DNA from: Nioella sediminis
GTDB lineage: Bacteria; Pseudomonadota; Alphaproteobacteria; Rhodobacterales; Rhodobacteraceae
Length of the DNA stretch: 51,345 nt
Assembly (NCBI RefSeq): GCF_001879695.1
Contig: NZ_MNBL01000026.1
Location: 1-51,345 of the forward strand
Direction of reading: 5' to 3'
Shown here: piece after piece, positions 40,441 to 46,937 of the stretch
Layout of the letters: each line of letters begins with the position of its first letter
Numbering within the stretch: position 1 is the first letter of the stretch
Notes under the pieces: generated by a model
Databases searched by the model: none
The model's input: the letters and a program-made list of their open reading frames with translations, nothing else
Told to the model about the DNA's origin: nothing
Made by a program: the position numbers and the translations under genes

Positions 40441-40492
40441 ACAGGGGGGTGCCGTGCGTACACCCCCTGTACACCCCCCGTACACCCCCCGT
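40441..40492. repeat. 11-bp tandem repeat with hairpin upstream of the MetE-like gene
   Basis: Three head-to-tail copies of ACACCCCC(C/T)GT occupy 40460-40470, 40471-40481 and 40482-40492, one per helical turn. The first copy can also pair with ACAGGGGGGTG at 40441-40451 through a 9-nt loop, with one bulged G. On the transcribed minus strand this stem is followed by TTTT, so it could act as a partial terminator before the MetE-like gene. Confidence 0.7.
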
Positions 40493-43672: not shown

Positions 43673-44436
43673 CAGTCTGCCGTCCACCCCCCGTCCACCA
43701 TCAGCGCCGAGCCGGTGACAAGCGCCGAGGCCTCCGACGCGAGGAACACCACCGCGCCCATGATATCCTCGACCTCGCCCGGACGGCCCAGTTTGATCTT
43801 TTCCCTGATCCACGCCGCCCGTTCGGGATTGTCGAAGGTGGATTGCGTCAGCGGCGTCAGGATGAAGGTGGGACAGATCGTATTGACGCGGATCTGTCGC
43901 GGGCCCCATTCGATGGCCATCGACTTGGTGAAGCCTTCGACCGCATGTTTGCTCGCGCAGTAGACCGCGCGGTCGATGCCCCCCACATGGGCCATCTGGC
44001 TGGAAATGTTGATCAGCGATCCGGGCCGCCCGCTGGCGATCAGCCGCTCCGCCACGGCGCGGGTCAGGAAATAGGCCCCGCGCAGATTGAGCCCCATGGC
44101 CAGGTCGAAATCGCCCTCGGTCGTGTCAAGCGCCGGGGAATGGCGCGCAACCCCTGCGGAGTTGACCAGCACATCGAAGGGTTCCGCCCGCGCGATGGCG
44201 TCCTCTGTTGCGGCCACGTCGGAGACATCGAGGACCAGCGCCTCGGCGCTCATGCCTTCGGCCTGCATGGCCGCCACCGCCGCGCCGAGCTTGTCTGCGG
44301 AGCGCGCTGCCAGAACCACATGCGCCCCGGCCTCGGCCAGCGCCACGGCGGCCGCCAGCCCGATGCCGGAAGAGGCGCCCGTGACCAGAGCGCGTTTGCC
44401 GTCGAGGCGGAACGAGGGGGTGCGGGGCAGGATCAT
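43672..44436 (-). CDS. SDR dehydrogenase
   Basis: A 254-residue classical short-chain dehydrogenase. The cofactor motif is LVTGASSGIGLAAAVALAEA near residue 17, NSAGVARHSP near 92, and the catalytic residues are in ISSQMAHVGGIDRAVYCASK near 140-160. The C-terminus VDGGWTAD is typical. It resembles gluconate 5-dehydrogenase-like SDRs, so an alcohol or keto group of a sugar-acid-like substrate is a reasonable guess. It overlaps the upstream NTF2-like gene by four bases (start 44436, stop 44433) and is coupled to the LacI gene. Confidence 0.88.
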   Translation of the reverse strand: MILPRTPSFRLDGKRALVTGASSGIGLAAAVALAEAGAHVVLAARSADKLGAAVAAMQAEGMSAEALVLDVSDVAATEDAIARAEPFDVLVNSAGVARHSPALDTTEGDFDLAMGLNLRGAYFLTRAVAERLIASGRPGSLINISSQMAHVGGIDRAVYCASKHAVEGFTKSMAIEWGPRQIRVNTICPTFILTPLTQSTFDNPERAAWIREKIKLGRPGEVEDIMGAVVFLASEASALVTGSALMVDGGWTAD

Positions 44437-45476
44437 GCGTCTCTCCAATCCGGTTCGGGGATGGTGCCGGGAACGCGGGCCTTGTTGAATTCCCGCATCC
44501 GCCCCAGCACGTCCACCCCAAGCTGCCGGTAGGCGTCGAGAATGTCCACAAGCACCCAGTTTTCACGGATGAGCCCGCCCTCCAGCCGCCAGAAATCGAG
44601 GCTGCGCAGCAGGATTTCCGTGTCGGAGGGCGCAATCCCCATCCAGCCATCGCCCGACAGTGTCAGCCGCATGTTAGGCCAGCCGGTTTCGCAGACATAG
44701 TCGCCTTCACCGATCCAATGGGACATGAGATCGCCCATGGCGTCGAGCTTGCGGTCGGGCATGCCGCGCAGGAACGGGCCCTGGTGCCAGCTGCGGAAGC
44801 CGGAAATGCCGCGCGCTGTACCGATCCCGGCGGGGCCGTACCAATTCATTTTGGGGTGCCAGTACCGGTGAAGCTGCATGACCTCGGGGTCGGGGGTCGC
44901 GGGGAACTTGCACAGGTCCGTCAGCATGGCGATGACGTGATCCATGGCCGCCTGCCCGTCGCCCTCCATGGTCAGCCCGTCGCCCGACATGGGTGCAGGT
45001 GTGCACAAGAAGGCACCAAGCTGCGGCGCCATGGGCCAGGCCATCGCCTGCATCATCAGCTCGGGAATGTCCCAGATCGCCTGCATCTCTGTGATCTGGC
45101 CGCCTTCCAGCCGGAAGAACTCGTGATAGCGCATATGGGCGAGGTGCCCCGTCGGCGGGATGCCCAGAAATGGCGCGCGGAACGTGCCCATGTAATTGCC
45201 CATGCAGCCGGCCCAGTCCTGCCCCTCGGGCGTGGTGCCCGCCATGACGATCATGTCGCGGCGTTCGAGGTCGGGCATGGCCGCCAGAAGCGGCGCATAG
45301 GCGGTGTCGTAGAGTGCCTGAGCGCCTGACAGGTCGCCGAACGGGTGGCACAATCGTGCAGTTACGTCCGGCGCGATCTCCGCCAGAGCCTGCCGCACCG
45401 GAGCCTTTGCAAAATCCGCCATGGACGCCCGAAGCGGCGCAATCGCGGCTTTGATGCTGGCGCTGCGGTCAGTCAT
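44433..45476 (-). CDS. Double NTF2/SnoaL-like domain protein (first of two)
   Basis: A 347-residue protein with two NTF2-like (SnoaL-type) domains. The first contains FLGIPPTGHLAHMRYHEFFR near residue 108 and WDIPELMMQAMAWP near 140. The second runs from MQLHRYWHPKMNWYGPAGIG near 205 to SLDFWRLEGGLIRENWVL near 310. GAGGG precedes the ATG at 45476. The palindrome array lies immediately upstream. With the paralogue at 41682 it makes a duplicated pair within one operon; both may act on the same pathway or as partners. Confidence 0.75.
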   Translation of the reverse strand: MTDRSASIKAAIAPLRASMADFAKAPVRQALAEIAPDVTARLCHPFGDLSGAQALYDTAYAPLLAAMPDLERRDMIVMAGTTPEGQDWAGCMGNYMGTFRAPFLGIPPTGHLAHMRYHEFFRLEGGQITEMQAIWDIPELMMQAMAWPMAPQLGAFLCTPAPMSGDGLTMEGDGQAAMDHVIAMLTDLCKFPATPDPEVMQLHRYWHPKMNWYGPAGIGTARGISGFRSWHQGPFLRGMPDRKLDAMGDLMSHWIGEGDYVCETGWPNMRLTLSGDGWMGIAPSDTEILLRSLDFWRLEGGLIRENWVLVDILDAYRQLGVDVLGRMREFNKARVPGTIPEPDWRDA

Positions 45477-45503
45477 TGTGCCCTCGTGCGACACAGGCGG
45501 TGG

Positions 45504-45595
45504 ATGGCCCTTCGAAGGGCCATGGCAGACGCGATTTGCAAATCGCGTGGGAAGCGGTTTCGAAACCGCTTTTTGAAGGCGCTTCGAAGCGCCTT
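45504..45595. repeat. Array of four perfect 20-bp palindromes
   Basis: Four perfect 20-bp palindromes follow one another: 45504-45523 (half-site ATGGCCCTTC), 45529-45548 (ACGCGATTTG), 45552-45571 (AAGCGGTTTC) and 45576-45595 (AAGGCGCTTC). The gaps are 5, 3 and 4 bp, so centres repeat every 23-25 bp. Three are centred on TTCGAA and one on TTGCAA. The arms differ, so this is not a simple sequence repeat. In RNA each would fold into an 8-bp stem with a four-base loop. It fills the gap between the HisD-like and NTF2-like genes. Confidence 0.95.
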
Positions 45596-45608
45596 TCCCC
45601 CGCTCCGC

Positions 45609-46937
45609 TCATTCCGCCGCTTCCCGGTGGGGTGCGCCTTCGCCATAGGGCACATTGACCCCGCCATAGCGGCGCACGCGGATGTTGCATTGCTCGGCAT
45701 GGCCGACGAAACCCTCCAGCATGCACAGGCGGCTGCCATATTCGCCGATCATGACCGCCGCCTCATCGGTCAGCACCTTCTGGTAGCTGTGGGTTTTCAG
45801 GAACTTGCCAACCCAGAGACCGCCGGTATAGCGCCCCGCCTTCTTGGTGGGCAGCGTGTGGTTGGTGCCGATCACCTTGTCGCCATTGGCCACATTCGTC
45901 CGCGCCCCGAGGAACAGCGCGCCGTAGCAGGTCATGTTCTCAAGGAACCAATCATCGCGGTCGGTCATGACCTGCACATGTTCCGACGCGATGTCATCGG
46001 CCACGGCCAGCATCTCGTCATAGCTGTCACAAAGGATCACCTCGCCATACTCCTCCCAGCTTGTGCGGGCGGTGTCGGCGGTTGGCAGGATTGTCAGGAT
46101 CCGGTCGATCTCGGACAGGGTCTCCTCGGCCAGCTTCCGTGAGTTCGTGACCAGCACGGCGGGAGAGTTATAGCCGTGTTCGGCCTGACCAAGGAGATCG
46201 GTCGCGCAAAGCTCGCCATCCACGGTGTCATCGGCGATCACCATGGTTTCGGTCGGGCCTGCGAAAAGGTCGATGCCGACCCGCCCGTAAAGCTGGCGCT
46301 TGGCTTCGGCCACGAAGGCATTGCCGGGACCGACCAGCATGTGCACGGGTTCGATCGTCTCGGTGCCGAGCGCCATCGCCCCCACGGCCTGGATGCCACC
46401 AAGCACGTAGATCTCATGCGCGCCGCCCAGATGCATCGCCGCGATCACGGCGGGGTTTGGCTTGCCCTGCCAGGGGGGCGTACAGGCCACGATGCGCGGC
46501 ACACCCGCGACCGATGCCGTGGCCACCGACATATGGGCCGAGGCCACCATCGGGAACTTGCCGCCGGGCACGTAGCAGCCCACGGACTGAACGGGGATGT
46601 TCTTGTGGCCCAGGATCACGCCGGGCAGGGTTTCGACCTCGATATCGAGCATCGAGTCGCGCTGCGCCTGCGCGAACTTGACCACCTGTTCCTGGGCGAA
46701 CCTGATATCGGCCAGTTCCCGGTCGGACAGCTCGGCCATCAGCGCCGCGATCTCGGCCTCGGACAGCCGGTAACTCGCAGGCGAATAGCCATCGAACTTC
46801 TCCGACAACTCCCGCACCGCCGCGTCCCCGCGTTTCTCGATATCGGCCAGCGTCGCTTCCACCACGGCGCGGGTCTTGGCATCGTCTTCGGCGCGTTCAT
46901 TGGCCGGTTTGCCACGCTTGAGATAGTCGATGGTCAT
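45609..46937 (-). CDS. HisD-fold dehydrogenase, HpsN-like
   Basis: A 442-residue zinc- and NAD-dependent dehydrogenase of the histidinol dehydrogenase fold. Conserved HisD elements are VGCYVPGG near residue 118, the zinc ligands in [16 protein letters not shown] near 250, the catalytic Glu-His in IASEHVQVM near 320, the metal Asp in [14 protein letters not shown] near 345, and the last His in [10 protein letters not shown] near 415. The [17 protein letters not shown] form resembles HpsN, which oxidises dihydroxypropanesulfonate, more than biosynthetic HisD. No his genes surround it, so a catabolic alcohol-to-acid oxidation is inferred. Its true substrate is uncertain. Confidence 0.82.

Follow-up and report, generated by a model that had tools for sequence, protein, structure and literature searches.

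Four perfect palindromes lie behind a gene in Nioella sediminis

The window analyzed here, a stretch of 51,345 nucleotides from the genome of Nioella sediminis (G000), raises the question of what kind of element would consist of several different sequences, each perfectly self-complementary. At 45504-45595, the initial annotation had described four consecutive perfect palindromes, and a recheck of the sequence bore this out: each is exactly 20 bp long, and the spacers between them measure 5, 3, and 4 nt. Unit 1 (ATGGCCCTTCGAAGGGCCAT, 45504-45523), unit 2 (ACGCGATTTGCAAATCGCGT, 45529-45548), unit 3 (AAGCGGTTTCGAAACCGCTT, 45552-45571), and unit 4 (AAGGCGCTTCGAAGCGCCTT, 45576-45595), to none of which a strand applies, are centered on TTCGAA, TTGCAA, TTCGAA, and TTCGAA, respectively. 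Nowhere else in the window is there a palindrome whose arms reach 9, and no palindrome with an arm of 10 arose in 20 simulated windows of matched dinucleotide frequencies, where the longest arm was 9. The window palindromes are far beyond chance, as had been claimed for them from the start.

The array is situated between two genes on the minus strand. A histidinol dehydrogenase-like gene (45609-46937, PF00815) ends with its stop codon 13 nt from the array, and a SnoaL-like gene (44433-45476, PF07366) follows downstream on the same strand. The start of the latter was set at the ATG at 45476, 27 nt past the array, with which the gene calls at the corresponding loci of the two closest relatives (L173 and L174) concur; alternative starts are 45422 in the gene call of the window and a GTG at 45494 in the longest open reading frame. 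A G-rich flank on the left (GCGGTGG, 45497-45503) and a C-rich flank on the right (CCCCCGC, 45597-45603) enclose the array and, judging from the sequence and the RNA fold, could pair as a closing stem with one mismatch.

The window also contains, at positions 40443-40492, another dispersed element, in which GGGGGGTGCC..GTACACCCCC precedes repeats of GTACACCCCCC; no array is present there, and a terminator-like site was called within the element on the minus strand (40467-40445). The same element lies beside a two-unit array at L148 (3354-3420) and also at L143, L144, L164, and L141, with flanks common to all five.

Arrays recur throughout the genome with a shared center and shared feet

The 21-mer at 45575-45595, which contains unit 4, is present at five sites in the genome, four of which carry a second, different perfect palindrome alongside. 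A covariance model built from seven units and searched against the 3.96-Mb genome yielded 186 matches with both strands counted, and 38 stretches, hereafter the own loci, were fetched around hits among the matches listed. The genome holds at least about 40 arrays that recur genome-wide at the 3' ends of genes, which fits the dispersed palindromic element envisaged in the initial annotation. The search proposed there, for further arrays in this and related genomes, found them in G000, in two other genomes of the genus (G002 and G003), and in other genera.

Arrays in N. sediminis comprise one to four units, mostly two to four, with a usual spacing of 2-5 nt and with arms that are unlike within an array, and the surroundings at the own loci are mostly G-rich on the left and C-rich on the right. 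Across own and public loci, 161 distinct arrays with 393 units were tallied, not counting duplicates or arrays no more than 40 nt from the end of a locus. Of these units, 312 are centered on TTCGAA, 43 on TTGCAA, and few on other sequences, so that 355 of the 393 units have one of these two palindromic centers. The consensus of one arm, taken from 143 distinct perfect cores, is A-(A/C)-G-(C/G)-(G/C)-N-(C/T)-T-T-(C/G). Common to the units are the center TT(CG/GC)AA and the feet A(A/C)G; the 91 own units comprise 42 distinct cores whose common sequence is limited to feet and center. Two units per array were most frequent (71 arrays), followed by four (37), one (31), three (19), and five (3), counts from which we claim no even-number rule.

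Units that lie close together are never the same. Among 37 own arrays other than the window array, none of 70 pairs up to 75 nt apart was identical (3.4 expected), while three of nine pairs at 76-160 nt were (0.4 expected). Corresponding values are 0/61 near and 4/8 wide pairs in G002 and 0/73 and 4/12 in G003, at largely the same loci as in G000. In G207, at chosen loci, 0/19 near and 8/9 wide pairs were identical, the latter value not being independent evidence because the loci were picked for the pairs that their listing showed. Widely spaced pairs (~88-130 nt) with identical arms are found at L160 (3491-3620), L161 (3522-3651), L135, and L294-L301; a comparison of G000 with G003 shows strong differences in the interior of L160 but not in its palindromes. 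On G000 contigs C41, C52, C126, C127, C162, and C163, several arrays are found no farther than about 500 bases from an end, and arrays may therefore break short-read assemblies.

Arrays follow stop codons and avoid divergent gaps

Positions relative to genes, which rest on home-made gene calls, were compared between arrays and other gaps of at least 60 nt at the same loci. The 41 rows of own arrays comprised 17 convergent, 18 tandem, and no divergent contexts, together with four at contig edges and two inside called genes; two arrays appear twice in these rows through overlapping contig ends (L141/L142 and L166/L171), and all four entries are counted as edge. Other gaps at the own loci were 5 convergent, 67 tandem, and 36 divergent, corresponding to an excess of convergent (p~1e-8, Fisher's exact test) and a deficit of divergent contexts (p~9e-6) among arrays. 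At public loci, with duplicates and arrays up to 300 nt from a locus end left out, 106 arrays were distributed as 42 convergent, 51 tandem, 4 divergent (5 under an alternative grouping), 5 edge, and 4 inside genes, compared to 31 convergent, 177 tandem, and 95 divergent among other gaps. The median distance from the nearest upstream stop codon to the start of the array was 8.5 nt (n = 96, public loci). Pfam backed all 18 flanking or window proteins that were checked, including both neighbors at five further array loci, and array contexts in G207, from gene calls with wider training, were likewise tandem or convergent.

This placement bears on two proposals of the initial annotation. A multi-hairpin RNA punctuation device fits arrays that recur genome-wide at gene 3' ends. 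A cluster of binding sites for the LacI protein encoded in the window does not: arrays adjoin unrelated genes and avoid divergent gaps, and the genome-wide spread and 3' location speak against operators of this kind (divergent contexts in 0/41 own rows and 4/106 public arrays). As for orientation, the unit AAGGCGC was proximal to the gene in 18, distal in 25, and otherwise placed in 4 cases of the family set, and proximal in 0, distal in 2, and otherwise placed in 12 of the own set; there is no clear polarity of units towards the gene.

Array stems hardly change between species

When the orthologous gap was aligned, all four window palindromes were found unchanged in the two closest relatives (L173 and L174), while the first spacer differed in both, the last in one, and the middle in neither. 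The initial annotation would have considered selection for palindromy or a repeat family unlikely had relatives shown this gap without palindromic pairing and had the genome held no other arrays; instead, the palindromes are kept in relatives while two of three spacers vary, and other arrays exist.

More broadly, 33 own arrays have a counterpart at the matching place in fetched stretches of G002 or G003. From 70 flank matches, 55 orthologous array pairs (141 palindromes) were retained after leaving out those below 87% identity, second-best matches, and the L174 repeat; the multi-copy loci L141, L143, L148, and L164 can pair with paralogues. In these pairs, 15 of 2,566 arm positions and 4 of 281 central bases differ, compared to 163 of 890 spacer positions (~18%) and 125 of 1,311 positions in the next 12 flanking bases. 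Several of the 15 arm differences fall outside the 20-bp core, at the outermost arm positions.

For comparison, we took ordinary hairpins lying no more than 70 nt from a stop codon at the same loci. Under equal scoring with G.T pairs allowed, core stems showed 4/2,483 differences and ordinary hairpins 30/560; with G.T pairs penalized in both sets, the values were 4/2,573 and 16/395, and under an earlier scoring 4/2,395 and 30/560. Between species, the stems thus differ at ~0.16% of positions, compared to 18% for spacers and 4-5% for stop-proximal hairpins of the ordinary kind. The rate of change in array stems appears to be some 25- to 33-fold lower than in the latter, in a comparison with G002 and G003 that favors conservation because the loci were fetched where the model had found palindromes. 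When one unit of every array pair is dropped (151 less 55), the value becomes ~0.26%, still some 15- to 20-fold lower than in ordinary hairpins. Compensatory change, which the initial annotation had considered as a source of the differing arms, is real but very rare: a single double change that preserves pairing, between L146 and L260, was observed in 1,197 stem-pair comparisons.

G.T pairs are scarce in these stems. With G.T allowed in both sets, own units contain 2 in 801 stem pairs, compared to 18 in 293 for ordinary hairpins; with G.T penalized in both, the values are 0 of 828 and 2 of 180. Among 15 mismatched units that lie beside perfect ones, a small sample, those in tandem arrays read on the sense strand have six A.C, no G.T, and six other mismatches; one G.T was seen in convergent arrays and one in edge arrays.

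Arrays are patchily distributed within the family

An exact copy of the 20-mer of unit 4 is present in no fewer than 113 public genome stretches (L006-L118, all of which contain it by selection), 80 of them listed by name. Nearly all of the 80 carry Rhodobacteraceae labels or genus names that we take to belong to that group, and a few carry broader labels. Four are labeled Enemella evansiae TN21-6, an actinobacterium (L021, L037, L052, and L060). Since L021 matches locus L196 of G007, a genome of the window's own family, with 100% identity over parts or all of four proteins, its label is probably wrong and the contig mislabeled or contaminated.

Within the genus, a degenerate motif in which the middle of the arm is not forced to be palindromic gave 66 hits in G000, 74 in G002, and 75 in G003, compared to 0-2 for the reversed motif used as a control, and none in G001, G004, and G005. 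Similarly, the covariance model matched 187 times in G002 and 184 times in G003 and, at E values as high as 0.1, found nothing in G001, G004, and G005. Of the six genomes of the genus, three therefore bear arrays and three show none. Further bearers include G007, G030, G207, G234, and G299; G006 showed no array. In a family scan with one genome per genus, the motif was found in 19 of 149 genera, 12 of which had five or more hits, and some of the single hits were imperfect palindromes. In a class scan, 4 of 289 genomes gave hits: G000, plus three with a single imperfect hit apiece. The distribution is patchy in the family, and outside it the class scan returned only those three imperfect single hits. 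No array match was found in phages, and the window array had no match in plasmids. One plasmid partially matches the L006 array (47% covered) at a site that is convergent by public annotation, and two other 50-kb stretches of it contain no array. At L309 (1516-1874, G299), an array region of ~243 bp is duplicated in tandem.

At the window gap and three other gaps that hold own arrays, G001, G004, and G005 have no array and no visible remnant wherever the gaps can be aligned; in G001, a contig ends within the window gap, and no alignment could be made across two other gaps. Where visible, the window gap of these genomes holds other G-run/C-run or terminator-like sequence (by eye). The lack of remnants in array-less gaps and the shared places in G002 and G003 indicate that arrays have been gained or lost as a set in the genus. 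A tail motif, GTATTTNNNCCAAGAAGAAG, first met after terminator-like hairpins in the window gaps of relatives, occurs in 13 of 149 genera, its bearers including G000, G007, G021, G025, and G221. Alternative terminator systems in different genomes were considered and rejected: G000 and G007 hold both GTATTTNNNCCAAGAAGAAG and arrays, and the two are thus not mutually exclusive.

Arrays resemble REP elements in placement

Among known systems, the nearest kind in place and habit is REP/BIME, which passages of PMC8266576 and PMC1590033 describe in E. coli and other bacteria as short intergenic palindromes, often grouped, at gene 3' ends. Our arrays are likewise intergenic, near gene 3' ends, and numerous in a genome. 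They differ from the elements described there in placing unlike perfect palindromes side by side and in having no sequence in common beyond feet and center (42 cores among 91 units). The REP tag GTAG, directed inward, stands beside 0.3% of 387 units, compared to a background of 1.4%, and is not enriched. The REP-associated tyrosine transposase (PF01797) was detected in 2 of 13 genomes (G003 and G196) and in none of the array bearers G000, G002, G007, G030, G111, G140, and G180; the REP transposase is therefore absent from seven of nine array bearers tested. The resemblance thus extends to neither tag, transposase, nor shared sequence.

The CGTC-tagged repeats described in parts of PMC3733652 are, like the arrays, palindromes dispersed in alphaproteobacteria. 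Looking for Rhodobacter, Roseobacter, Ruegeria, Paracoccus, or Alphaproteobacteria in the main text of that source gave no hit. Beside the 387 units, the CGTC tag has a frequency of 5.2% inward (background 6.4%) and 3.1% outward (background 6.3%). Two-way intrinsic terminators, in the sections of PMC5381666 that treat them, are hairpins common to convergent genes and more conserved than one-way terminators. Arrays, too, would form hairpins between convergent genes with strong conservation, but they differ from terminators so described in their multiple units, the lack of a U-tract, the near-absence of G.T, and a rate of stem change that seems some 25- to 33-fold below that of ordinary hairpins here. 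Repetitive hairpin-forming elements of sponge mitochondria keep their stems while loops vary, as excerpts of PMC2800124 report; those are in organelle DNA with few stem types per genome, compared to 42 cores among 91 units of one genome in our case. Rfam returned no match in the window, and at six array loci its gathering score was reached only by two tRNA genes, with none at L148. No description of such arrays was found in the open-licence literature that was searched.

A two-way element at gene ends is the leading reading

RNA folding predicted four hairpins from the window array on both strands, each with a stem of 8 bp and a 4-base loop, enclosed by a GC-rich closing stem (z = -4.8 and -4.2). 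Six folds were predicted in all: L158 and L138 resemble the window and L140 does so in part, while the two units of L147 are predicted to pair with one another and not as two hairpins. Single-stranded DNA is also predicted to fold as hairpins (two folds). The outer stem gave a covariation score of 4.07 (permuted mean 3.82, maximum 4.13 of 200) and a flank duplex energy of -15.95 (-15.34, sd 0.36), a weak signal with no clear covariation across arrays, and a covarying outer stem is not claimed. At L155 (5900-6060), the last bases of the upstream gene, its stop codon among them, are complementary to the right outer arm, CCCGCCTCACTC, so that a 12-bp outer stem would form (by eye). No intrinsic terminator was called at 45504-45595, where there is no U-tract.

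The bias towards stop codons and convergent genes favors a role in transcripts, while the scarcity of G.T, the lack of polarity, and the palindromic centers favor DNA or a need on both strands. Given these opposing signs, we rank first, tentatively and at somewhat less than even probability, a two-way gene-end element that would form hairpins in both transcripts, protecting mRNA 3' ends and partially terminating transcription; a site read at the level of DNA is ranked a close second. RNA hairpins as the working form and their effect on RNA ends are what we infer from these patterns. In such an element, RNA transcribed past the stop codon would pass at once through one to four short hairpins of 8 base pairs with a 4-base loop, bordered by G-rich sequence on one side and C-rich sequence on the other. 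Such hairpins could cap the mRNA 3' end against exonucleases and could slow or partly stop RNA polymerase. Because a perfect palindrome yields the same hairpins from either direction, two convergent genes could have one array in common; between tandem genes, an array might shield the upstream message and let some transcription through. A complete terminator is unlikely at the window, since no more than 27 nt lie between the array and the start of the next gene.

Several observations argue against the RNA reading. A hairpin in sense RNA should tolerate G.U, yet such pairs are almost absent (2/801 vs 18/293), and an RNA loop needs no palindromic center, yet 355 of 393 units have one. The closing stem has no clear covariation, a U-tract is lacking, the units of L147 pair with each other in the predicted fold, and sister genomes manage the same gaps with no array wherever these can be aligned.

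A structural site in DNA, a duplex palindrome or extruded cruciform recognized at gene ends by a protein that reads structure, is a possible explanation of only slightly lower probability. Candidate readers are a nucleoid, topoisomerase, or repair factor, convergent transcription being a place where supercoils pile up; feet and center would be read by sequence, and the middle of the arm would need only self-complementarity. Such a site would account for the G.T contrast just given, the lack of clear polarity, the two prevalent centers, the consensus of feet and center across 143 distinct cores, and the finding that near units are never identical (0/70, 3.4 expected) while wide pairs sometimes are (3/9, 0.4 expected). 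On the other hand, the link to stop codons and convergent genes is equally expected of an RNA element, stricter scoring leaves the G.T contrast on few events (0/828 vs 2/180), and palindromes of 20 bp are short for cruciforms. A more specific reading, again only slightly less probable, is a marking system that selects self-complementarity and not sequence: a lineage-specific factor would read the TT(CG)AA center and A(A/C)G feet, the middle of the arm would be free as long as it self-pairs, adjacent units would have to differ, and widely spaced partners would tend to match. Patchy occurrence among genera and all-or-none presence within one genus suggest that such a factor has been gained or lost.

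Plain two-way intrinsic terminators in tandem would likewise be expected near stops and between convergent genes and would have GC-rich hairpins, as arrays do. We nevertheless consider them improbable: the window array has no U-tract and no called terminator, only 27 nt separate it from the next start, the stems appear to change 25 to 33 times more slowly than ordinary hairpins with almost no G.T, and in at least two loci, L148 and L164, the array is flanked by separate terminator-like stretches (by eye). Slightly less probable again is a mobile or selfish palindromic repeat, REP/REPIN or MITE-like, that is tolerated at gene ends. Mobility would be in keeping with the patchy presence in the genus (three genomes with arrays, three with none), with the recurrence of one 20-mer across many genera, and with the longer repeated stretch around a two-unit array common to five own loci, but a Y1 transposase is present in only 2 of 13 genomes (two of nine bearers, neither of them G000 or G002), the tags GTAG and CGTC are not enriched, and 33 own arrays occupy matching places in G002 or G003 and evolve far more slowly than neighboring DNA. 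Finally, template switching, proposed in the initial annotation as a generating mechanism, would through correction of quasi-palindromes give perfection and scarce G.T in the absence of selection, but as a purely mutational account it is very improbable and insufficient alone, since arms should then accumulate matched changes about as fast as free DNA does and instead hardly change (one of 1,197 stem pairs, with spacers at 18%), a contradiction unless the arms are also selected.

As arrays lie just past stop codons and are nearly free of change, they may represent an unrecognized kind of gene-end signal. At least about 40 loci of one genome would then carry non-coding signals with stems that appear some 25- to 33-fold slower to change than those of ordinary hairpins at gene ends. 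That arrays so slow to change are absent from genomes of the same genus is a contrast that makes their function directly testable. The presence and absence of arrays thus provide a natural experiment on the role of palindromic DNA at gene ends, a question long left open by REP elements.
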